Below are positions 1,854 to 44,447 of a stretch of DNA of 64,000 nucleotides, one piece after another. How positions within the stretch are numbered: the first letter of the stretch is position 1; the number at the start of each line of letters is the position of its first letter. The stretch lies in contig NZ_SJPY01000002.1 of NCBI RefSeq assembly GCF_007860185.1, positions 713,775 to 777,774 of the forward strand, written 5' to 3'. This DNA is from Novipirellula aureliae. Lineage in GTDB: Bacteria; Planctomycetota; Planctomycetia; Pirellulales; Pirellulaceae. The notes beneath the pieces were generated by a model. That model saw nothing but the letters and a program-made list of their open reading frames with translations. It did not search any database and was not told where the DNA came from. The translations under genes and the position numbers were made by a program.

Positions 1854-3407
1854 TTACTTCTCGCCACTTTTCCAAAGCTTGATTTGATCAACATCATTTG
1901 CGGCCGCCGCACCCTCCGTACTACGTCCACGCGCGATGTCTGCCTCTAATAGAGCGAGCAAGCGTGCTGCCACTTCCGGTTGCGACGCATAGAGATTGGT
2001 TGTTTCGCTGGGATCGTTTTCCATGTCGTAGAGCTGCGCAACCGGAGCGTCGTTCTTTGCTGCAGCGTTTTCATTCGGAGCAGTCCAGCCACCGGACCCT
2101 TTGGCAAGCAGCAGCTTCCACTTGCCCTGTCGATAAGCAAAGTGGCCGCTGATGGAGTGGTGGATGATGCCGTTTCGGGATGAGACAATCGGCTCGCCTT
2201 TCAGTGCCGGTGCAAAACTCACACTGTCTTCGCCGGCATTTTTCGGCAACTCCGCGTCGGTTAGGTCTGCACAGGTCGCCATCAAATCGACGAGGCAAAT
2301 GGTTTGGTCGCTTTGACTGCCTGCTTTGATTTCGTTCGGCCAACGAACGATGAACGGCACCCGATGCCCACCATCCCATAAATCGGCTTTGGAGCCGCGG
2401 AACTGCGCGCTCGGGTAGTGCCCCTGCGCTTCCAAATCGCCAATTCTGGCCGCCTTTGAACAGCCGTTGTCCGCAGTGACGATGACGATGGTGTTATCGG
2501 CAAATCCAGAGTCGTCCACGGCCTTTATAATCTGACCAATCACATGATCGGTCTGCATGACAAAATCGCCATAGGTTCCTAGTCCGCTCTTTCCCTTCCA
2601 ATCCGCTGTCGGAACAATGGGGGTGTGCGGCGATGGAAGTGGGATGTAAACAAAAAAGGGCTTATCACCCTTCTGCTCCGAAATAATCTTCACGGACTCC
2701 TTCTCCAATTCGCCCAGCACATCAATCGCCTCGAAGTCCTCACCGGCAGGACCAGGCCGACGGAAGGCTTTGGCATGTGTGCCGGCGGTGACCCAATTGC
2801 GATCACGAATCCACACGTAAGGGGGAAAGTCCAGCGATGCGGGGATACCAAAAAAGGAATCAAAACCGAGATCAACCGGACCTCCCTGAATGGTTCCCTT
2901 CCAGTCGATATTTGAGAGTTCCTCGGGAGCAGACGCACCTTTGCCCATCCTTGCTCTCAGGATCGCCGTCGATTTTGGCGCGGCTGGTTTCCCATCGATC
3001 GTAGCCATTTCTAGCCCTAGATGCCATTTGCCGATCATGGCGGTCTTGTAACCGTTTTTTGCGAGCAAAGCCGGCACGGTCAATCGATCCGTCGGGATAA
3101 GAGGTTCGCCGTAGCCATTGAGAACACCGTCTTGTAACTTGGACCTCCAGTTATAGCGTCCTGTCATAATGCCGTAACGAGTCGGCGTACAAACCGATGA
3201 GCTGGTGTGCGCATCAGTAAAGATCATTCCTTCCGACGCCAACCGGTCCATGTGCGGAGTATCGATCTTACCTCGTTCCGGATTCAAGCAATGCACATCC
3301 CCGTAGCCCATATCGTCGGCGAGGATGAAGATTACATTGGGGTTCGAAGCCGCATGAGCGGTAAGGCCAAGAGAGGCCATCACTACGAAAATACATAGTC
3401 GTTTCAT
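1854..3407 (-). CDS. Secreted arylsulfatase (formylglycine-dependent, S1 type)
   Basis: A 517-residue type I sulfatase that hydrolyses sulfate esters, here probably on a polysaccharide in the periplasm or outside the cell. The signal peptide covers residues 1-20. Metal-binding 'ILADDMGYGD' follows at about 29-38, and the maturation motif C73-T-P-T-R77 marks the cysteine converted to formylglycine. 'GKWHLG' and a late 'DNG' motif complete the family signature. The start at 3407 (MKRLCIFVV) gives a clean signal peptide with GGAA upstream; a 14-residue longer reading from 3449 adds nothing signal-like. It lies 83 bases downstream of the DUF5060 protein. The sulfated sugar it acts on cannot be assigned by eye. 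Confidence 0.93.
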   Translation of the reverse strand: MKRLCIFVVMASLGLTAHAASNPNVIFILADDMGYGDVHCLNPERGKIDTPHMDRLASEGMIFTDAHTSSSVCTPTRYGIMTGRYNWRSKLQDGVLNGYGEPLIPTDRLTVPALLAKNGYKTAMIGKWHLGLEMATIDGKPAAPKSTAILRARMGKGASAPEELSNIDWKGTIQGGPVDLGFDSFFGIPASLDFPPYVWIRDRNWVTAGTHAKAFRRPGPAGEDFEAIDVLGELEKESVKIISEQKGDKPFFVYIPLPSPHTPIVPTADWKGKSGLGTYGDFVMQTDHVIGQIIKAVDDSGFADNTIVIVTADNGCSKAARIGDLEAQGHYPSAQFRGSKADLWDGGHRVPFIVRWPNEIKAGSQSDQTICLVDLMATCADLTDAELPKNAGEDSVSFAPALKGEPIVSSRNGIIHHSISGHFAYRQGKWKLLLAKGSGGWTAPNENAAAKNDAPVAQLYDMENDPSETTNLYASQPEVAARLLALLEADIARGRSTEGAAAANDVDQIKLWKSGEK

Positions 3408-3490
3408 TTTAAGTTCCAATATTTTGATTTCACAAATGCGATGCAGCAAACGGCACCTAAGTTAGCTGATAGTATCGATCCGTCACATTC

Positions 3491-5305
3491 TTAACGCTTC
3501 AGAAGAACAACCCAATCCTGTCCCGGCGTGCTCGGTGGCATTCCCAAAGAGACATTTTCCTCGCCACCGGTAACCGTCTTCGGAGTTCCGTCGATCAAAT
3601 CTCCGCCCGTACGTGGATTAAACCACTGAACGGAAAACGTTGTTCCCGCGGCGTTGGACAGATCCACCTTGGCTTCACCGCCGTTCTTCAAATAAAGCAG
3701 ATAGACCTGGCCTTCATTCGCCAAAGCCCAGTTATCGTCACCGATCGCCAAATCGTCATTCGGCTTCATGCCAGCAATGTCCTTCGCCAAATGTTCATTC
3801 ATAAATTTGGCGGCGTGCCCGATCGGCTTCCAGCAATCCTCGTGGACCGCATAGTCGATGTGCTTCACATCATCCTTACCAGTATAAAACTCCATATGCC
3901 CGCCGGCCAGAAGGGCGCCCCAAACGACATCTTTGCGAATAAGGTCCACCAAATTATTCGGCCTCCGTCCCCACCAGGGTTCATTAATCGCAACCACCCA
4001 TTTGTGGCCGCTAGCGGCACTCTCTTCGACCCATCTCAAAACCTCATCGTGATTGCTGAGCATGTTTTTTCTCGGTACGACTAAGGTCTGCAAACTAGCA
4101 CCCGTGTAGTCCTTGTATCCGATCAACTGAGGAAAGATATCGTCAAAGACACCGCCTGGACCATTGTGCACGGTAATGTGATCCTGATAACAAGTCAGCG
4201 CCCGAATTCGGCTCGCGAATTCTTTCCGCTGGGCGTGGGTATTCGGAACGTGGAACCCTTCACCTTTGGCCTGGTTCTCCTCACCCACATTCCATGTAAC
4301 GGCCATGTGATGCCCAAAGCGTGCAATCAGCTCGCGATATAAAATCTTACGAGCATCGGAAAACGTTCCCTTCCCATCCCGGTCTTCGAGATAGTTGGTG
4401 TTCTCGGATTCGGAAAGCTGGAAATGCACCATCAATCCCATCCGGTCAAAATGAGTAAAAAGCACCTCCCACTGGCCTAGCTTTGAGACGTCGTACACAT
4501 CGATGTTATCCATACCGGTCCACGGCCAGGCCTCTTTGCCATCCCCATAGGCATTCATGCACAGGAAATAGTGTGAATTGAGCCCCAGGGCTGAAAGGTA
4601 ATTGATCAACCCAATGATTCCCTTGCCTTTTTCATTCGCCCAGGTTGGATCGCCGGGTTTCCAATCTTTGATATTTGGCGAATACAGATCGTTTTCATGT
4701 CCGGGGGTTCCATCAAACTCACCATACTCCAACAGCACTTCGGGACTGTTAACGCCGCATTTAATGAAATAATCACCATCCGCAAACCGCAGGTAGTGTT
4801 CACCAACATACTCCAGCTTCCCTTTGGCCCTAAAATCCTTTCCCGACTTATCCTGCGGTCCAATTTTAAAGCTTCCGGTCTCACCGTCGGGAGCGGTTCC
4901 GCCCGTCCCGCCGGATAGGTTCGCCGCCACATTCTTCCCGGTAACAAAGCTGACCTTGTAGTTCCATTCCCCTTCCTCTCCAGCGGCAAAGCGTGTTTTC
5001 CATTTGTTTCCGCTTGTAGCAGAACTATTGGCCGGGTCGCCGTCCGCATCGAAAAAACCGGGAACCTTGTATTCCTTGCCACTCGGCGAAGTGAACGTTA
5101 CATCCAACCTGTAGTTTCTAAATACAGCAGACGATTCATCGACCTGTGGTCCATCGAAGACGACCTCAATACGATGCCACTTTTTTATCGTGCCATCGGC
5201 ATTTCGCTCGCCATCAACAACAGCCGCAAATGATGAAACCGACACCGTGCTGAGCAACAGTGCGCCGATTGCGACCAAGTAAAAACTCAACTTAGCTAAC
5301 TTCAC
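3491..5305 (-). CDS. DUF5060 domain TIM-barrel glycoside hydrolase-like protein
   Basis: 604 residues with a signal peptide (1-27). An N-terminal beta-sandwich at about 28-125, with phrases such as 'EVVFDGPQVDES' and 'GEWNYKVSF', matches the DUF5060 domain. A long TIM-barrel-like catalytic region follows, with 'TWNVGEENQ' and 'INEPWWGRRPNN' as candidate acid residues. The C-terminal ~90 residues ('VYLLYLKNGGEAKVDLS...') resemble the small beta domain called 'putative collagen-binding'. Proteins of this architecture occur in polysaccharide loci and are presumed glycoside hydrolases; the substrate is unknown. It sits between two sulfatase genes on the same strand. A degraded copy of a similar C-terminal region may survive at 58386-58872. 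Confidence 0.8.
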   Translation of the reverse strand: MKLAKLSFYLVAIGALLLSTVSVSSFAAVVDGERNADGTIKKWHRIEVVFDGPQVDESSAVFRNYRLDVTFTSPSGKEYKVPGFFDADGDPANSSATSGNKWKTRFAAGEEGEWNYKVSFVTGKNVAANLSGGTGGTAPDGETGSFKIGPQDKSGKDFRAKGKLEYVGEHYLRFADGDYFIKCGVNSPEVLLEYGEFDGTPGHENDLYSPNIKDWKPGDPTWANEKGKGIIGLINYLSALGLNSHYFLCMNAYGDGKEAWPWTGMDNIDVYDVSKLGQWEVLFTHFDRMGLMVHFQLSESENTNYLEDRDGKGTFSDARKILYRELIARFGHHMAVTWNVGEENQAKGEGFHVPNTHAQRKEFASRIRALTCYQDHITVHNGPGGVFDDIFPQLIGYKDYTGASLQTLVVPRKNMLSNHDEVLRWVEESAASGHKWVVAINEPWWGRRPNNLVDLIRKDVVWGALLAGGHMEFYTGKDDVKHIDYAVHEDCWKPIGHAAKFMNEHLAKDIAGMKPNDDLAIGDDNWALANEGQVYLLYLKNGGEAKVDLSNAAGTTFSVQWFNPRTGGDLIDGTPKTVTGGEENVSLGMPPSTPGQDWVVLLKR

Positions 5306-6774: not shown

Positions 6775-8249
6775 TCCCCTGTCACCGCTTGAGGTAATGA
6801 CTGTCGGCCAGCACGGTTACTTTCCCGAATATCGGTATGTCTCATTCTCCGATTGGTATACCAGTGATACTTCCCTTTGGCATCCGGATCGGTGACGATG
6901 GGTGCATCATACTCCACAGCAATCACAGTGTCTCTTGTATCCAGCGCCTTCGCAGGCACTTCAATCGACGTGACGTTACCGCTTGCGTCGTAACTCACCG
7001 GCAAAGCCTCACGCTTCGGATCTGCCAGGAAATAAGCCTTGGACGGCTTGCCAACGATACCATTAAACTCAATGCCTTCCGGCTTCCACTCCAAAACATG
7101 CAGATAGAGGGTCTTGTCCTTTTGCGTCATCGCTCCCCACCAGAAATCGTAATCAACCGGTGAGTAATGGGTGCCGTAGATCGACTCGCCGTTGACTTCC
7201 ATCCATTGGCCGACTTCTTTGAGTCGCTCGATCTCTTCAGGTACCAAGGTTCCTTCCGGAGTCGGGCCGACATTAAGCAGGAGGTTCACACCCCGCGCCG
7301 CACACAGTGCCGTAAATTCAATGATGTCCTTGGGGCTTTTCCAGGCATCGTCGGTACGGTCGTAGCCCCAATTGTGGCGCATGGTCATGCAGGTCTCGGT
7401 GTCTTCTGTCATTCGCTTCTTGGGAAGCATCCGATCAGGAAGTGATTCAAAGTCGGCGTACGTGCGCTGCCCGACCGGCACTCGACGACTGTAAAGACGA
7501 CTGCAGATCACCGCATTGGGTTGCAGCTCGCGTACGCGTGCGCCTTGCGCGTTGGCTTCGATGACATCATTACCGCCCACATCAAACCAGAGGACCGCCA
7601 TTTCGCCATAGTTCGACAGCAGCTCATCGAGATTTGTCTCGACCAGTTTTAGATACTCCTCTGTCGACAGTGTTCCGGCGTTACCTCTACCTCGTGAGCG
7701 GTGATACCAATCCTTGAACTGGGAGTAGTACACTCCAAATTTGATTCCCTGCTTGGCACATTCTTGTGAAAGCTCTTTGATAATATCGCGTTGAAACGGA
7801 GTGGCTTCCATGACGTTATAATCGGTGGCCTTCGTCTCAAACAGGCAAAAGCCGTCATGGTGTTTGGAGGTGATGACCATGTACTTCATGCCCGCCTGCT
7901 TGGCGGTCGAGACCCACTTTTCGGCATCAAATTCGGTGGGATTGAATTTTGGTGCCAATGTATTGCGGTATTCCTCTTTTGGAATATTGGCACTATTCAT
8001 CAGCCATTCCGCACTGGCCCCTCCCTGTTCCTTGCCATAGTCCTTGCCCTTCCATTCCCCGCCCTGAACGGAATAAAGCCCCCAGTGGATAAACATGCCA
8101 AATCGGGCTTCACGCCACCAATCCATGTGAGAATCGTCGGTGCGACTGGGACTGGTGGTGCCGTTGTCTGGGTCGGCAGCAACAACCGCCGGAACGCTTA
8201 AGAGGCAGGCTTGAACCACCGCCAGGAGGATAAACTTATTCTTTTTCAC
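6771..8249 (-). CDS. Alpha-L-fucosidase, GH29
   Basis: 492 residues with a signal peptide (about 1-25). 'WWREARFGMFIHWGLYS' (44-60), 'ITSKHHDGFCLF' (HHDGF 130-134), 'FGVYYSQFKDWY' and 'VLWFDVGGND' follow in the standard GH29 order. Asp223 in 'WFD' is the expected catalytic nucleophile of this retaining family. The enzyme should release alpha-linked L-fucose from oligosaccharides, outside the inner membrane. The C-terminal part forms the usual beta-sandwich. The stop overlaps the start of the downstream sulfatase by four bases. Confidence 0.95.
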   Translation of the reverse strand: MKKNKFILLAVVQACLLSVPAVVAADPDNGTTSPSRTDDSHMDWWREARFGMFIHWGLYSVQGGEWKGKDYGKEQGGASAEWLMNSANIPKEEYRNTLAPKFNPTEFDAEKWVSTAKQAGMKYMVITSKHHDGFCLFETKATDYNVMEATPFQRDIIKELSQECAKQGIKFGVYYSQFKDWYHRSRGRGNAGTLSTEEYLKLVETNLDELLSNYGEMAVLWFDVGGNDVIEANAQGARVRELQPNAVICSRLYSRRVPVGQRTYADFESLPDRMLPKKRMTEDTETCMTMRHNWGYDRTDDAWKSPKDIIEFTALCAARGVNLLLNVGPTPEGTLVPEEIERLKEVGQWMEVNGESIYGTHYSPVDYDFWWGAMTQKDKTLYLHVLEWKPEGIEFNGIVGKPSKAYFLADPKREALPVSYDASGNVTSIEVPAKALDTRDTVIAVEYDAPIVTDPDAKGKYHWYTNRRMRHTDIRESNRAGRQSLPQAVTGE

Positions 8250-8296: not shown

Positions 8297-10939
8297 TTAT
8301 TCAGAAAGCAGATTTAAGTGGTCCAAGCGAGCGAGCGGTCTGTCAGCGGAAAGCGTTATGTCGTTGACCCCTTTGTTCAACTGCACCGTTTTACGGTCCC
8401 ATGCCCAAGTCGTATTCCCTGATGTACACCAGAAAACAATGTCACCGAGCGTTTCTTCATTCACACTCACTGCTACCGGGTATTGGCCTTCTTCGAGTGC
8501 ATAGCGGAACTCCATCGTATACAACCCGGCTTTCGGAGCCTCGTATCTCCATGTGATCGTTGACGCTTCGGTTTCCGGATCAAAGTCAACATATCCACTT
8601 CCCGTGAATCCGGACGTTTCATTCGCCGACTTTCCGTTTTTGAAAATGGCATCCTCCGCCTCTAGTATAACCCCGCCCTCGGTAACCTCCAGCGAAGCGA
8701 TTTGCGCATCCGTTCCACCAGCAATTTCGATGTCATGCAAAACATCCTTCATATAGCTGCGCCAATCGCTATGTCCAATGCGGTTCATCCAAATCGGATT
8801 AGTATAACGAGTCATCGCCGAAGCGACATACAGTCGCCAATATTTTGCCGCCGACTGCAACTCATCGATCGCACGCTGTTGGCGATCCGCATCGTTGTTT
8901 TCTCGATACACCGCTAACTCCGCCGCACCGCGAATCTTGTGAGCATAGTATTTGCCCATATAGGCCATCGATTGGATATCTCCTAACGTCAACCTCAACT
9001 CTTTATTCCCACGATGTTTCATCTCTGCGATGAGGGCTAAGGCCTTTTCAGCGTGAGCATGGATTTGCTCTGAAACATCGATAGGCGTGACGCCATCGTA
9101 ATCTGGGTTCGTCCCGTAATCTCGGATCGATTGATAGCCAGTGGTGCTCAGTGGATCTAAGCTGATGAACCGGTTCACATCGTGAAAGCCTGTCTTCGTT
9201 TTCGCGAAACCGGGTCTTCCCTTGCAACCTTCGATATACCAATGAAGGTCGAGCGGGCCCCAATGCAATCCGGTTGTTTTCGGATACACCATCGATGCTT
9301 CCTGCCAAGCCGCAAAAAGATCCGAGGCTCGAACTTGAGGAAAGCGTTTCTGTATCACCGCGATAAAACGTTCGTTTGGCATCTCGGGGTCATAACCCAA
9401 CCGCCCCCAAATCATCCAGTGATACCAGTGTTTTTCTAATTCGATTTGCCGCGTGGGATCCGGCTCGGTGCTAAGGAACTCGCGTCCCCACACATATTGA
9501 TCCGATCCGAGATAGAATCCTTTGGATACATCATGAGGGATGTTCTTAATGAAGGTTCTGACAAAATCGGGCGCGCCCCACCGGAAATAATAAACATCAT
9601 CATTTCGTAACGTCCAAGTCGTTTTGACATCGTCGCGTTCCCTTAAGGTTTTAACAAAGTCCTCATGAAACGGCATGGTCAACGCACTATACACGTGAGC
9701 CTTTGCATACTTGAAACTGAAAATGAACTCGATGTTTGGGTGGTCCATCAACGGCTTGAATCGATTCAGAACCGCATCGACGCCGGTATCATGTTGCCTG
9801 TGAATAAACATGATCTTGCGATCGGGATCCTCCGCCAAGGCATCCAGTACACCCTGCCCATAGGTTTCGAAGGCCCAGTCCTCTTTTTGCTCCACCGAGT
9901 GCTTGCGCATGTTCTCGCCCGGAGTCAGCCCAATGCCGGCCAAATCCGGATACGTCTGAACCATCGCTTTTACGCTCTTACGGAAATAGTCTCGTGTAAT
10001 CGGATTATTGATGTCGTCATCAATTCCGTACTGTCCATTCGTCCCATAAGAAAAGATGTTCCAAGTGATGATCCAGAAGTCCACATTCCGGGACTTGGCG
10101 TAGGCCATAACGCGACGCCAAAAGTCAATTTTCTGATCGATTGTCAGTTGATGAAGCGTCTCGGTCTGGCTCAGCATTTCATCGTCGACCAAGCCGACGC
10201 CCAGCCCACTGTAGAGTTCTTTAAATTGAATTGTACTCCGCTTAACATCATCCAAGGCGACCTTCTCGTAACCTGGCACCTTCACCATCGAAGGAAACGG
10301 GTGCAGTCCCCATAACGAAATATGGTTGTAGCGAGATCGAGCCAGCTGATCGATGTAGTCGGTCCAGAAGTCCCAACTCCACATCTCGTAGATATTATGC
10401 TGGCCCGCATCGGACATGTCCGAGTAACTCGGCGTACGCAGATCGAGCGGGCAATTGAACTTCGTACCTCGCTTGGGCATATAAGGATTTTGCTCGTCAT
10501 TTTCGATCGCAGTCAATCCACCCGCGGCTATGATCTCCGCGATTTCCAAGCCACCGTACATGACGCCTGCCGAATCGGCTCCAATCAACCAATAGGCGAT
10601 TCGATCGCCCTCTTGAATACGACGGATAGCAAAACCTTCGGACTTGAGTCCCTGCGGTAAGACACCACCCGCCTCCTGAAACGCGGAGACGGATGCCGGG
10701 TCGTCGAGACGCGTTAGAACAATACTCACGACCGAATCCGACGGGAGCAACTTTAGCGATGCTATTCTCACCACCACATCCCCATTCGACCGCAATGCTT
10801 CCTCAATATCTTGCACTGCGAATGCAGCCATGCCATCGCCTGGGTCGCTTACCACATTGACTTGAGTCGCCCAAGTTGTTGGAACCGCGAACAAACAGAC
10901 ACTAAGCAAAGCACACGTTCCGATTGCGTATTTCTTCAT
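8297..10939 (-). CDS. Alpha-glucuronidase-like glycoside hydrolase with C-terminal CBM6/CBM35-type domain
   Basis: 880 residues with a signal peptide (1-24). The N-terminal ~130 residues look like the small domain that precedes alpha-glucuronidase-type barrels (GH67 N-terminal type). Residues ~150-600 form the putative barrel, with '[18 protein letters not shown]', '[10 protein letters not shown]' and '[10 protein letters not shown]'. Residues ~755-880 ('LEAEDAIF', '[10 protein letters not shown]', '[10 protein letters not shown]') match a CBM6/CBM35 carbohydrate-binding module. The paralogue at 41790-43910 has the same catalytic region but lacks the binding module. The family assignment (GH67/GH115-like) is from motif impression and the reaction is not proven. 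Uronate removal would fit a fucoidan-like substrate. Confidence 0.68.
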
Positions 10940-10986: not shown

Positions 10987-12204
10987 CTAACGCCAGGTAA
11001 TTTTGGCTTCCCTTGTTTCGGTATTGACCCAAACGCTGGCATGCTCAAACTCACGAGTGAACTCCCAACCATCAGGCGTGGATCGTTGGTAAGCCCCCTT
11101 GGGCGGGCCAAGTGTTTTTTTGAATTCAGGATAGTCAACCAGGGCACCGGATGACAGTTTCCACCCCCAGCTGTACATAAAATACGAGTAAGGCTGCGCA
11201 CCGATCAGATAGCAAGCATGGGCGAACTCCAACTTCTCCTTGGAGAGCTCCGGCATGTTCGGCTTCATGTTTCCTCGGCTTGTCCCTTCAACCCCTAGGC
11301 GGAATACGGAAATCTTTCCGTCCTTGGCATTTCTTAACATATGCCCCCATTCGGAAAGTAAACTCTCCTTGTTGGATTTCACGGCTGCATAGTTTTCAAA
11401 CATGATCGCATCACTGACAGGATAAACATATTTTGCGTCGTCACTGTAGGCATTGTTCGCCAGTAGAATTTTGTCAGGACCGATCGCCTGTTTGAGCGCC
11501 GCCATCATCTGGCCCATGGCCTTTTCAACCTCCGGCCTCAGTTCCTTATCGCGATACATGATGTTGCCGTGCATTTGGTCAATGAAGGCACCATCGCAAC
11601 CCGCGTCTTTCACTCCGGTCGAAACCGTTTTCACCCACCAGTCGCGGAAATCGGGATTCAGCACGTCGTAGCAAAAAGCAATGCCAAATCGTTTGATCAG
11701 TTCACCCGTTTTGGGTTGGGTGATTAGGAACTTCTTTAGCTCTGGATGTGCGTCGATACGCTGACTGGTGAAGTTTTCGTTGTACGAGGTGTAAGGCCAA
11801 GCAAAGGCAGCGTTGAAGTAAAACAACACCTTCATGTCCGGTTTGATCTTCTTAAACGCCGCCGCTTCATGCTTGGCACCTAATTCAGCGGCACCGAGTT
11901 GCCCCATCCCATGTGATTTTTCGATGCACAGAAAATCCGTTTGCTCGGCAATAAAACGAACCTGCTCAGGACGGAGCACACGACTCTTATCGCCAAACAT
12001 GAGATAGCGAGGCGTGGTTTCCCAACTGAATTTAGGATAGAAGTCCTTGGGTACAAATTGACTGCCATCACTGTTGATCAAAGATCGGTCATTCTTCTGG
12101 TCGTTTGGCGTTTGCGCGCAAACCACCCCGGCGCCTACGCACAGCACCATTCCAATCCAACCCGTCAGGACTACATTTGCATGTTTCATCATATCGTCTT
12201 TCAA
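10987..12204 (-). CDS. Putative glycoside hydrolase, TIM barrel (GHL15-like)
   Basis: 405 residues; a signal peptide lies within the first ~30 residues, and the Met at residue 6 is an alternative start. The body has the pattern of hypothetical glycosyl hydrolase families built on an alpha-galactosidase-like barrel: 'VLFYFNAAFAWPY', 'FCYDVLNPDFRDWWV', 'GCDGAFIDQMHGN' and 'ILLANNAYSDD'. Asp in 'FIDQ' and in 'CYDV' are plausible catalytic or binding acids. I cannot name a substrate. It is the last gene before the hairpin-repeat array, which separates it from the next upstream sulfatase. Confidence 0.65.
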   Translation of the reverse strand: MKDDMMKHANVVLTGWIGMVLCVGAGVVCAQTPNDQKNDRSLINSDGSQFVPKDFYPKFSWETTPRYLMFGDKSRVLRPEQVRFIAEQTDFLCIEKSHGMGQLGAAELGAKHEAAAFKKIKPDMKVLFYFNAAFAWPYTSYNENFTSQRIDAHPELKKFLITQPKTGELIKRFGIAFCYDVLNPDFRDWWVKTVSTGVKDAGCDGAFIDQMHGNIMYRDKELRPEVEKAMGQMMAALKQAIGPDKILLANNAYSDDAKYVYPVSDAIMFENYAAVKSNKESLLSEWGHMLRNAKDGKISVFRLGVEGTSRGNMKPNMPELSKEKLEFAHACYLIGAQPYSYFMYSWGWKLSSGALVDYPEFKKTLGPPKGAYQRSTPDGWEFTREFEHASVWVNTETREAKITWR

Positions 12205-12264
12205 TGTTTATTGAAAATGAGAACCGTAAATTTATAACTTCGAGTGCTTCAACCACATTAAAAC

Positions 12265-12330
12265 GTGGGGTAGGCATCCTGCCTGCCAATCCGTCGTTGT
12301 CGTAAATCGCAGGCTGGAAGCCTACGCCAC
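12265..12330. repeat. REPIN-like inverted pair at the head of the hairpin array
   Basis: Two ~22-base copies of one short element face each other: left arm GTGGGGTAGGCATCCTGCC..., right arm ...GGCTGGAAGCCTACGCCAC. They match at about 19 of 22 positions, with a ~20-base spacer. The right copy recurs once per unit in the adjacent tandem array. The arrangement is that of REP doublets (REPINs), though the sequence is not the enterobacterial one. Confidence 0.75.
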
Positions 12331-13214
12331 GCCAACCTTTACTTGTAACGTAGTGGATCTTGTTAAAGATCCTTCCACATGAGGGATCTTTAACAAGATC
12401 CACTACGGCAACTGTAAATCGCAGGCTGGAAGCCTACGCCACATCAACCTTTACTTGTAACGTAGTGGATCTTGTTAAAGATCCTTCCACATGAGGGATC
12501 TTTAACAAGATCCACTACGGCAACTGTCGTAAATCGCAGGCTGGATGCCTACGCCACATCAACCTTTACTTGTAACGTAGTGGATCTTGTTAAAGATCCT
12601 CCCACATGAGGGAGCTTTAACAAGATCCACTACGGCAACTGTAAATCGCAGGCTGGAAGCCTACGCCACGTCAACCTTTACTTTTAGCGTAGTGGATCTT
12701 GTTAAAGATCCTCCCACATGAGGGATCTTTAACAAGATCCACTACGGCAACTGTCGTAAATCGCAGGCTGGAAGCCTACGCCACGCCAACCTTTACTTTT
12801 AGCGTAGTGGATCTTGTTAAAGATCCTCCCACATGAGGGAGCTTTAACAAGATCCACTACGGCAACTGTCGTAAATCGCAGGCTGGAAGCCTACGCCACA
12901 TCAACCTTTACTTGTAACGTAGTGGATCTTGTTAAAGATCCTTCCACATGAGGGATCTTTAACAAGATCCACTACGGCAACTGTCGTAAATCGCAGGCTG
13001 GATGCCTACGCCACATCAACCTTTACTTTTAGCGTAGTGGATCTTGTTAAAGATCCTTCCACATGAGGGATCTTTAACAAGATCCACTACGGCAACTGTC
13101 GTAAATCGCAGGCTGGAAGCCTACGCCACGTCAACCTTTACTTGTAACGTAGTGGATCTTGTTAAAGATCCTTCCACACGAGGGATCTTTAACAAGATCC
13201 ACTACGGCAACTGT
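12331..13214. repeat. Tandem array of eight long hairpins, period 112-115 bases
   Basis: Units start with CGTAGTGGATCTTG at 12349, 12461, 12576, 12688, 12803, 12918, 13033 and 13148. Spacings are 112, 115, 112, 115, 115, 115 and 115; the 3-base difference is an extra CGT after CAACTGT. Each unit holds a large hairpin (about 23-base arms beginning CGTAGTGGATC and ending GATCCACTACG, ~11-base loop) and a small hairpin (AGGCT-GGA-AGCCT). A linker ending AACCTTTACTTGTAA joins units. Copies differ by a few substitutions only (loop, linker, one arm base in units 3 and 5). No open reading frame of note crosses it. It fills the gap between two genes of the leftward block. Confidence 0.95.
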
Positions 13215-13268
13215 ACGGGTTGGACTTAAATCCTATTTTGGAGAGAAAGTCTGATGGAACATTCTGGA

Positions 13269-14630
13269 CTACTCGTCACCATCCTCTTGTGTGTTTCGAT
13301 TCCGCCTAGCTCCACTTCGAACGGTGGTCGGATCGGGGGTGGTGGGCAGGGTGGCCTTCCAGTCGAGCACCATTTTGGTCAGCCTGGCCGTAATTTCGGG
13401 GTGCGTTTCTGAAAGATCTTTGGCGATGTCCTCGGCGCGATCCGATTTCAAGTTATGCAATTCGGACTGGGTGCCGTCGAAGTTGGTTACCAGTTTCCAA
13501 TCGCCGTCGCGAACCGCTAGGTCCTCGGATCGATACCTCCAGAAAAGGGGCCGGGTGCGTGTCACAGGCTTCCCATTGAAAGCCTCCAATAGATTTTCGC
13601 CATCGCCCTCAGCCTCCGCGGGAGGAGTCACTCCGGCAGCCGCGCAGAAGGTGGGCAGCAAATCGACCGCGGTTAATACAGTGGATTCATTCTTCATCCC
13701 GGCTGGAGCGTGACCAGGCCAACGTAGAATAAACGGCGTCCTTACCCCACCTTCAAAGAGACTTCGTTTGCGGCCACGCAAGCCGCCGGTTTCTCCGACA
13801 CTGTAGTAACTACGCCAGGCCCCCGGTTTTCCTTTCTGGGTGGCATCGCCGGTGTCCTCCGGCCCATTGTCACTGGAAAAGACCACGATCGTATTCTCTG
13901 CGATGCCGGCTTTATCGAGAGCATCAAGAACCATTCCAACCTTGTTGTCGCCTTCGGTAATGACCGCCGCATAGACTTGTTTTTGCGGATCGAGATGCTT
14001 CCAAAGCTCCAGGGGCTCGGGGGCAGGTGTATGGGCCAAATGACTCTCGTGCAGCCATACATTCAAATAAAATGGCTGGTCCTTGTTCGCTTCAATGAAC
14101 TGCACCGCTCGTTCAGCAAGTTCGTTGCCACTTTTGGGAACCTGTGGACCAGGGCCGCCGTAAACCGCCGATTCATCGATTCCGTAGTCGGCCATCGTCG
14201 GCGTGCCCTTACCCATATGCCATTTGCCGAAATGTCCCGTCCGATATCCGGCCGCTTTCAGAAAACGCGGGGTGGTGGGCGCTTTGCCGTCGAGCCAATC
14301 AGGCATCTCCGACGCCCGATTGGGGCCAAAAATATGGTTGATGCCAAAGCGTGAAGGATACCGTCCGGTCATCGCCGCCACGCGACTGGGGGAACACACC
14401 GGATGAAGCACGTTGAACTGCTGAAAATCAATGCCCTCACTGGCCAGCCTGTCGATATTGGGAGTCTTCAACCAGGTGTTTCCATGACACGACAGATCCC
14501 CCCATCCCCAGTCATCGGCATAGATAAAGACGATATTAGGTTTGGCCGGTGGAACCGGGACATCGTCCGCACGCACCACGGCCAACGGAGCGAGCAGCCA
14601 TGCGATCAAAATCGTGAGGGTCTGTTTCAT
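13269..14630 (-). CDS. Secreted arylsulfatase
   Basis: 453 residues from the Met at 14630, chosen because it starts a classical signal peptide (MKQTLTILIAWLLAPLAVVRA). In-frame Met codons further upstream (to 14708) would put a polar stretch first, and none has a clear ribosome site. Signature elements are 'YADDWGWGDLSCHG', the maturation motif C79-S-P-S-R83, 'GHFGKWHMGKG' and 'SSDNGPED'. It is closely similar to the sulfatase at 5392-6774, so the two are likely paralogues acting on related sulfate positions. The hairpin array begins just downstream of its stop codon. Confidence 0.92.
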   Translation of the reverse strand: MKQTLTILIAWLLAPLAVVRADDVPVPPAKPNIVFIYADDWGWGDLSCHGNTWLKTPNIDRLASEGIDFQQFNVLHPVCSPSRVAAMTGRYPSRFGINHIFGPNRASEMPDWLDGKAPTTPRFLKAAGYRTGHFGKWHMGKGTPTMADYGIDESAVYGGPGPQVPKSGNELAERAVQFIEANKDQPFYLNVWLHESHLAHTPAPEPLELWKHLDPQKQVYAAVITEGDNKVGMVLDALDKAGIAENTIVVFSSDNGPEDTGDATQKGKPGAWRSYYSVGETGGLRGRKRSLFEGGVRTPFILRWPGHAPAGMKNESTVLTAVDLLPTFCAAAGVTPPAEAEGDGENLLEAFNGKPVTRTRPLFWRYRSEDLAVRDGDWKLVTNFDGTQSELHNLKSDRAEDIAKDLSETHPEITARLTKMVLDWKATLPTTPDPTTVRSGARRNRNTQEDGDE

Positions 14631-14731
14631 TGCATTGATTGAAAGGTTATTCATTGGTTGCATTGATTGAATTTCGGGCTCCATGGGATACCCCTTTATA
14701 AATGGCAATTCCCTTGCCTACACATCAGCGA

Positions 14732-43910: not shown

Positions 43911-44447
43911 GTATCCTTCCTCCACTGTTATCCAATTGGTGATTCAAAGGCGTCGAAAATGTCTCTCGTCCCCGTTCCCCATGTTATCATTCACGGTTTC
44001 CTCAGACTATCGTTAAATCAGCGGCGAATCAAAAAATCATATGAGAGTGCGATGCTACGACTAAGAATTAGGGTTCGCCGTAGTGGACGAGGCTACGAGT
44101 CCTCCGTGATTTGCCTGACGTTCGGGACTCGTTGCCTCGTCCACTACCACTACCCTAAAATTACGCTGTGACAAATCGTTAGAGCTGAAGTTCTAGATTG
44201 CGTCGTTGCGGACCAGCGAGGAAATGGCCATACGGATGGGGCTCGCTTTCACGGAAGTCGCTTCGTTTGAATCCTCGTGATCTGAACGTGAAAGAAGCGA
44301 TTATGATGTTTGGCGAGAAGCAAGTGAAAGCTAGGCTGGTCAAAGGGAGAAGGGTAGCTTGGTTGAGTTTGCCTCTCTGGTTCCCATTGCTGCCGGCCAG
44401 GCACTGGCAGTCGAGTCGCGTCAATTTTTTTCATCAAAGGAGAAGAT
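43911..44447. other. Intergenic region with one long hairpin
   Basis: No gene recognised. The notable item is the hairpin at 44080-44147, listed separately. A purine-rich stretch with AGGAG before 44448 is the ribosome site of the next gene. Confidence 0.55.
44080..44147. repeat. Long hairpin with the same outer bases as the 12-13 kb array
   Basis: Arms GTAGTGGACGAGGC-TACGAGTCC and its near-complement (...CTCGTCCACTAC) are ~23 bases each, with a ~21-base loop. The outermost GTAGTGGA/TCCACTAC is the same as in the eight-unit array at 12331-13214, but the inner arm sequence is different while still pairing. Confidence 0.85.

Follow-up and report, generated by a model that had tools for sequence, protein, structure and literature searches.

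The window (the whole stretch of 64,000 nucleotides that was analysed) contains a cluster of sulfatase and glycosidase genes on the minus strand, and the gap between two of these genes holds a tandem array at 12298-13214, for which TRF reported a period of 115, 8.0 copies, 95% matches and a score of 1652. The array lies about 55 bp past the stop codon of the sulfatase gene, and its head lies about 60 bp ahead of the start of a reading frame for a GHL15-type putative glycoside hydrolase. The features of the locus, in which A and B denote two different REPs, are as follows:

10987-12204, minus strand: GHL15-type putative glycoside hydrolase, downstream in transcription (mechanical ORF, TTG start)
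12243-12261, plus strand: left inverted-repeat arm AGTGCTTCAACCACATTAA (0 mismatches) of a putative IS630-like MITE shell around the B-REPIN of the head
12265-12330, no strand assigned: head of the array, a B-type REPIN, with its left REP at 12265-12287 (tag GTGG) and its right REP, inverted, at 12308-12330
12302-12416, 12417-12528, 12529-12643 and 12644-12755, no strand assigned: array units 1-4 of 8
12756-12870, 12871-12985, 12986-13100 and 13101-13214, no strand assigned: array units 5-8
12308-12326, minus strand: B REP core of unit 1; the cores of units 2-8 start at 12420, 12535, 12647, 12762, 12877, 12992 and 13107
12350-12372, plus strand: plus arm of the A REP in unit 1; the others start at 12462, 12577, 12689, 12804, 12919, 13034 and 13149
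12384-12406, minus strand: minus arm of the A REP in unit 1; the others start at 12496, 12611, 12723, 12838, 12953, 13068 and 13183
13269-14708, minus strand: sulfatase, upstream in transcription (mechanical ORF)

The eight units measure 112-115 nt and are 94-100% alike; they vary at 8 of 109 aligned positions and by a 3-nt length difference, which, as read off the sequence, separates two main unit lengths and consists of CGT in the link between units. From start to start, successive plus arms of A are 112, 115, 112, 115, 115, 115 and 115 nt apart. Each unit combines two inverted copies of a 23-mer, A (GTAGTGGATCTTGTTAAAGATCC), i.e., a REPIN, with one copy of B. Among the 16 copies of A in the array, 14 are perfect and two, the minus arms at 12611 and 12838, have one mismatch each. 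The B core (CGTAGGCTTCCAGCCTGCG), present once per unit, is perfect in six of the eight units and has one mismatch in the other two (at 12535 and 12992), and, as read off the sequence, the B copy of unit 1 doubles as the right-hand REP of the head's inverted pair. The preliminary description of this locus had reported eight tandem hairpin units of 112-115 bases, each including a small hairpin identical to an arm of the inverted pair that heads the array; both statements hold, the first by the TRF copy number and the fold of every unit, the second by a B core with at most one mismatch in 8/8 units.

With regard to folding, a single copy of A forms a 7-bp stem with loop GTTA behind GTAG-T (ensemble frequency 0.92), i.e., a short hairpin preceded by the GTAG tag of a REP, and two inverted copies can pair over up to about 27 bp to form a long stem; the long hairpin of each unit is a doublet of this shorter hairpin-forming REP. 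RNA folds of the plus strand ranged from -48.2 to -54.8 kcal/mol over all eight units. In the one unit that was compared with shuffled sequences (12986-13100), the two strands gave -56.0 and -52.8 kcal/mol (z about -10 and -9.5), and none of 200 shuffles was as stable; the head (12255-12335) gave -40.2 kcal/mol (z -5.9).

A is dispersed throughout the genome. With up to 3 mismatches allowed, 457 copies were identified in 7.27 Mb and 40 contigs, 210 on one strand and 247 on the other, while the reversed A pattern, used as a control, yielded 0 copies; the B core, in the form GTAGGCTTCCAGCCTGC and with up to 1 mismatch, was found 47 times. A sample chosen without regard to REPs, positions 1-800000 of contig 1 (C1:1-800000; contigs are hereafter C1, C2 and so on), contained 74 copies of A in 36 clusters, as compared to 0 copies in one shuffle. 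These clusters comprised 19 doublets, 11 singles and 6 larger groups; all 19 doublets had GTAG on the outside and 17 had 32-34 nt between starts, so that A shows the inverted doublets at a set spacing that characterize REPINs. When copies were joined over a wider distance, 30 of the resulting 35 clusters were not located mostly within ORFs, as judged with a crude ORF caller that placed 88% of random spots within ORFs. Combining high copy number with a mostly extragenic location, A is thus a GTAG-tagged REP that often occurs as REPIN doublets and is mostly intergenic. The 12 B cores found in the sample with up to 2 mismatches had the tags GTGG (7), GTAG (4) and ATGG (1). The proposal that a REP-type element had been amplified in tandem is borne out, the stem being two inverted copies of A, and both of the checks that accompanied it, for dispersed copies and for a RAYT (Y1 transposase) gene elsewhere in the genome, gave positive results: the 457 copies of A and the RAYT-like gene, flanked by A, that is described below.

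Within this genome, the array is nothing unusual, as 23 of the 59 tandem arrays with a period of 20-250 in the 800-kb sample include the core of A, of B or of a third REP family, C. The C core (GTCTCTCCGAGAC) is found in 12 of these 23 REP-bearing arrays, in up to 23 copies (e.g., C1:298807-299683), and hairpins like C flank a RAYT-like gene at C7:203808 (locus L090). On contig 13, at about 10050-10560 (L221), a segment of approximately 307 bp with three copies of A is present twice in tandem.

The transposase of A or B was sought among 13 matches of the Pfam Y1_Tnp model in the same genome (E 0.001), none of which was flanked by a near copy of either REP. Scans of their flanks at up to 6 mismatches for A and up to 3 for B yielded only a 3-mismatch B within the gene at L032 and a 5-mismatch A at L034, the latter of which reads as a copy of A split by a small inverted-repeat insert; this insert (L034 2356-2481) is a short element whose inverted repeats (TTAACGGCGTGTCGATTTAATC) are perfect over 22 bp, seemingly inserted in an A REP near the Y1 transposase gene. 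Repeats were present at all 10 examined loci of these 13, several being tandem arrays that adjoin the gene, while short two-copy repeats beside such genes may be due to chance. The arrays at these loci (L031-L043, on C1, C2, C3 and C6-C10) include ones with periods of 35 and 38 around L039, 71 beside L038 and 70 beside L042.

A profile of four RAYTs, run over six genomes, identified a RAYT-like gene that the Pfam Y1 model had missed, at about 420996-421565 on the minus strand of contig 5, i.e., on a different contig from the array. Copies of A lie on both sides of this gene (10 copies, 9 of them perfect, in the 3.3-kb locus L102), the arrangement expected of a RAYT with its own REPs. The protein of 195 aa has an HUH motif (HFH, in MPDHFHMLW) and a conserved tyrosine in YIARNPERAGLV; H69, H71 and Y130 are invariant in 6/6 relatives, and by analogy Y130 would be the catalytic tyrosine of a Y1-type fold. 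In its predicted structure, which is of middling confidence (mean pLDDT 62.5), the best fold match in the PDB was 4er8 (E 4.0e-8, TM 0.68 by target length), which is also the sole PDB entry that the protein matches by sequence (E 0.022, with matches accepted up to E 1). This entry, an E. coli protein, is TnpA-REP (RAYT) bound to its REP hairpin. The NCBIfam model REP_Tyr_transpos (NF047646) matched the candidate with E 5.6e-10 and 39.3 bits, under the curated cut-off of 80, and Pfam Y1_Tnp (PF01797) with 18.7 bits, under the cut-off of 23; neither database's cut-off, which is a convention rather than a biological feature, is reached, and this, together with the middling confidence of the model, counts against the assignment. 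The NCBIfam model matched 6/6 family members at E up to 1 (best 2.1e-10), and the RAYT-like proteins at L039, L041, L056 and L072 are likewise below 80 bits. The putative RAYT of A represents a divergent RAYT subgroup and is likely the cognate transposase of A. With regard to B, no RAYT was identified in this genome, which also weighs against a REP-RAYT origin of the array, and the nearest REP that adjoins a RAYT is GTGGCACAGGCTTCCAGCCTGTG at L094.

The pairing of A with this transposase recurs in other genomes. More than 20 copies of A were found in 3 of 40 genomes (our own, G000, as well as G012 and G015), which are also the only three with a RAYT above 370 bits, although these scores are partly built in, since the four sequences that make up the profile were all taken from this same trio. 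Among the other 37 genomes, three have a weaker RAYT (239-265 bits) and 34 have none at E 1e-10. The RAYT relatives in G012 and G015 have A-type copies on both sides, mostly the one-base variant GTAGTGGATCTTGCTAAAGATCC; no A was found in the flanks of two further hits in G015, L234, which has an internal stop codon, and the more distant L235 (273 bits). Four genomes (G001, G002, G008 and G011) carry 1-13 copies of A each without a close RAYT; this counts against the REP-RAYT reading and indicates that copies of A can outlive the RAYT or travel without it. Among 37 public RAYT hits, a list that may omit the source genome's own record, 21 loci (L168-L188) were scanned for REPs; the five top-ranking hits of the 37 all have A or its one-base variant next to the gene, namely those in Rubripirellula obstinata (89% identical), a Pirellulaceae MAG, Rhodopirellula baltica and two Pirellula MAGs. 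Two distant loci have hairpins with other stems, the tag GTAG and a similar loop (GTAGCTGAATTTGCAAAAATTCAG in a Planctomycetota MAG, L177, and GTAGCCGCGTTTGTAAAAACGCGG in a Limisphaerales MAG, L179). The remaining 14 scanned loci comprise nine without a GTAG hairpin and five with one to five hairpins of different kinds, among which the L176 hairpins resemble those of L177. These loci hint that in more distant relatives the stem of the REP changes while tag and loop stay. Going by this one mobile gene and its closest public hits, the window would probably derive from Pirellulaceae, perhaps from the vicinity of Rubripirellula.

A further feature, added here to the earlier reading of the locus, is that the head retains, at 12243-12261, one inverted-repeat arm, the left one, from a longer element; no right arm was seen at this locus. 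A complete, two-armed relative of the head element lies at C1 about 1508470-1508596, with arms CTAATGCTTCAACCACATT and AATGTGGTTGAAGCACTAG, and the head B-REPIN with its left flank is identical at 84 of 87 aligned bases to the part at about 1508470-1508558. Arms like CTAGTGCTTTGTCAGGGATGAGAATTAGGGTTGGC were found on at least one side of 12 of the 21 A-REPINs in C1:1-800000 at a threshold equal to the 99th percentile of 3000 random arms, with ties counted, and of 9/21 at a stricter score of 13; in the full set of A-REPINs the count was 22/41, a set that is biased because loci outside the sample had been fetched for holding copies of A or B. By eye, REPINs of other families also lie within such shells. 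Elsewhere in the window, at about 44046-44200, a REPIN of a different family (GTAGTGGACGAGGCTACGAGTCC ... GGACTCGTTGCCTCGTCCACTAC) sits in the same kind of MITE-like shell, and a REPIN like it is present at C1 about 7330-7483.

The arms were compared to the ends of an IS630-family element at L151 (about 2949-4176), which has two overlapping ORFs, the second scoring 129.8 bits against a cut-off of 100, and ends CTAGTGCTGCGTTACATCT...AGATGTAACGCAGCACTAG that form 19-bp inverted repeats; a left end similar to that of this element is found at L167 4218 (minus strand). Shell arms and element ends agree only in CTAGTGCT and a portion of the inner arm, and because this match is partial, the interpretation of the shells as IS630-like MITEs that enclose REPINs is put forward as a lead. 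In this lineage, the centre of such shells is occupied by REPINs of several families (A, B and two more as judged by eye), which could mean that a single-strand system (RAYT) and a double-strand system (DDE) are nested, either because the RAYT prefers the centre of a MITE hairpin or because the MITE carries REPINs as passengers; we regard such nesting as possible, if doubtful. If true, it would make the array a composite of two systems, amplified in part. REPIN, MITE and IS630 are named together in the available text of one earlier paper (PMC3189936).

We consider it highly probable that the array represents a local expansion of REPINs in which A was moved by a RAYT and the number of units grew by slippage or exchange. 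In outline, single-stranded A-REPINs would be moved by the RAYT encoded on contig 5, and one of them would have landed beside an older B-REPIN, within the remnant of an IS630-like MITE in the gap between the sulfatase and GHL15 genes. A segment of approximately 115 bp, comprising half of the B-REPIN and the A-REPIN, may then have been duplicated at a 3-nt match, TGT, and growth to eight copies could have followed by slipped replication or unequal exchange, aided by the hairpins. No excision or movement has been observed, which speaks against the part assigned to the RAYT. As read off the sequence, the two ends of the array share TGT only. The units are also mosaic: for 16 of 21 pairs of informative sites, all four combinations of variants were observed. 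Barring misassembly or repeated mutation, this points to exchange between units.

Misassembly bears on the array as a whole, as 917 bp of near-identical repeat are hard for short reads, the assembly is in 40 contigs and mosaic units would fit an artefact as well; the true copy number might then differ from eight and be perhaps one or two. However, the units can be told apart by their 8 variable sites and the 3-nt length difference, and many other arrays with other periods were assembled in the same genome, so we consider an artefact very improbable.

Other arrays of this genome provide a comparison. Among 40 REP-bearing arrays with computed edges, the ends overlap by at most 4 nt in 13, by 7-8 nt in 3 and by at least 10 nt in 24, where the edges are heuristic and three of these 24 (C1:298807, C1:481054 and L161) have overlaps 1-2 nt under a full period, so that they might instead count among the arrays with small overlaps. 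In 13 of the 24 with large overlaps, the overlap is 23-39 nt, about one REP long, which argues against reading these as slippage in particular, as it would also be expected from unequal recombination between REPs or from a RAYT acting on neighbouring REPs. By contrast, the arrays at C1:304567 (16 copies) and C1:653232 have both of their ends on direct repeats of 7-8 nt that lie within the REPIN, as slippage predicts; such repeats are present in every REPIN because each REP is itself palindromic, and for these two arrays slippage fits best.

The transposase might also make the tandem copies directly, by cutting single-stranded DNA 5' or 3' of the REP between C and T and joining neighbouring ends. 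Cleavage between C and T by a RAYT near REPs has been published (PMC8266576, in the part available), the junction of the window's array can be read as such a site, and both the share of sample arrays that hold an A, B or C core (23/59) and the tandem repeats beside several Y1-type genes (two-copy cases aside, as possible chance) are compatible with such activity. However, the edges of arrays lie at varied distances from the REP, and in the 12 arrays with an end overlap of at most 4 nt that were used for a junction test (L148, with an overlap of 4, was left out) a C|T site on either strand was possible at 3 junctions, as compared to about 3.1 expected by base rate. We thus judge direct production by the RAYT unlikely; given the mosaic units, the 3-nt end match and the lack of an excess of C|T junctions, growth by slippage or unequal exchange is most likely.

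The preliminary description had also taken the retention of long repeated stems as a hint of function, e.g., as a terminator bank. The latter was rejected, as 12100-13400 contains 0 terminator-like sites where 1.0 would be expected; the same interval contains 1 promoter-like site (1.4 expected), and no known RNA family matched the window at gathering scores. A broader proposal is that the array has been kept because, lying between the sulfatase gene and the GHL15 gene of a polysaccharide cluster, it stabilises mRNA or tunes expression. Its position between two same-strand ORFs, near the stop of one and the start of the other, and its very stable stems on both strands favour this proposal, as does the finding that EPS genes in Thauera are flanked by GTAG-1 arrays (PMC3733652, as far as its available text goes). 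If the gap is transcribed, eight hairpins could conceivably make the sulfatase transcript more stable or uncouple the sulfatase gene from the GHL15 gene, possibly as a by-product. Against a selected function stand the counts of terminator- and promoter-like sites and the related locus in G002, a genome of the same genus, where the GHL15 orthologue is 80% identical, the neighbour is another sulfatase-like reading frame and 40 kb contain neither A nor B when up to 4 and up to 3 mismatches, respectively, are allowed. In addition, the 35 clusters of A in the wider joining were 18 codirectional, 9 convergent and 5 divergent with respect to the adjacent genes, with 3 inside ORFs, as compared to 385 codirectional, 103 convergent and 104 divergent gene pairs overall, i.e., they have no clear orientation preference. 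Nothing measured supports the hint of function, REP arrays being common in this genome, and retention would require none, since recent growth, consistent with the likeness of the units and the related locus that lacks A and B, would be sufficient. We therefore regard maintenance for function as quite unlikely and prefer a local REPIN expansion.

REPs, REPINs, RAYTs, tandem REPIN clusters and the RAYT/repeat pairs of R. baltica have all been published before. Bertels and Rainey (2011, PMC3116915) described REPINs and tandem REPIN clusters in Pseudomonas fluorescens SBW25, and in the text available the SBW25 elements resemble those reported here in being inverted, extragenic REP doublets that cluster beside each cognate RAYT gene and in forming ordered, near-identical REPINs that are tandem together with flanking sequence. 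They differ in REP sequence, probably in phylum, in spacing (32-34 nt here versus peaks at 71 and 110) and in size, the largest such SBW25 cluster holding four REPINs plus one REP versus eight REPINs here. The GTAG families of Di Nocera et al. (2013, PMC3733652) likewise have, in the sections accessible, a GTAG tag (mostly GTGG in one family), a stem of mostly 6-9 bp, head-to-head dimers and clusters reiterated in tandem with flanking DNA; for R. baltica, the same sections mention different REP families as well as "a plethora" of genes for tyrosine transposases together with repeats that match them. IS630-like shells do not figure in these sections. BIME-2 of E. coli also consists of several tandem units of two opposed REPs, but with a different REP and with a described binding of gyrase (PMC2817692, part of the text). 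Searches for literature on palindromic repeats in Rubripirellula, or on "repetitive extragenic palindrom" in Rhodopirellula, found none by those terms.

What is added here is a particular REP-RAYT pair in several Pirellulaceae, a divergent RAYT subgroup and the putative MITE shells. The pair occurs far from the proteobacteria in which the REP-RAYT system was worked out, and in a genome with dozens of REP arrays of differing periods, the origin of such arrays, whether by slippage, exchange or RAYT activity, would be measurable.
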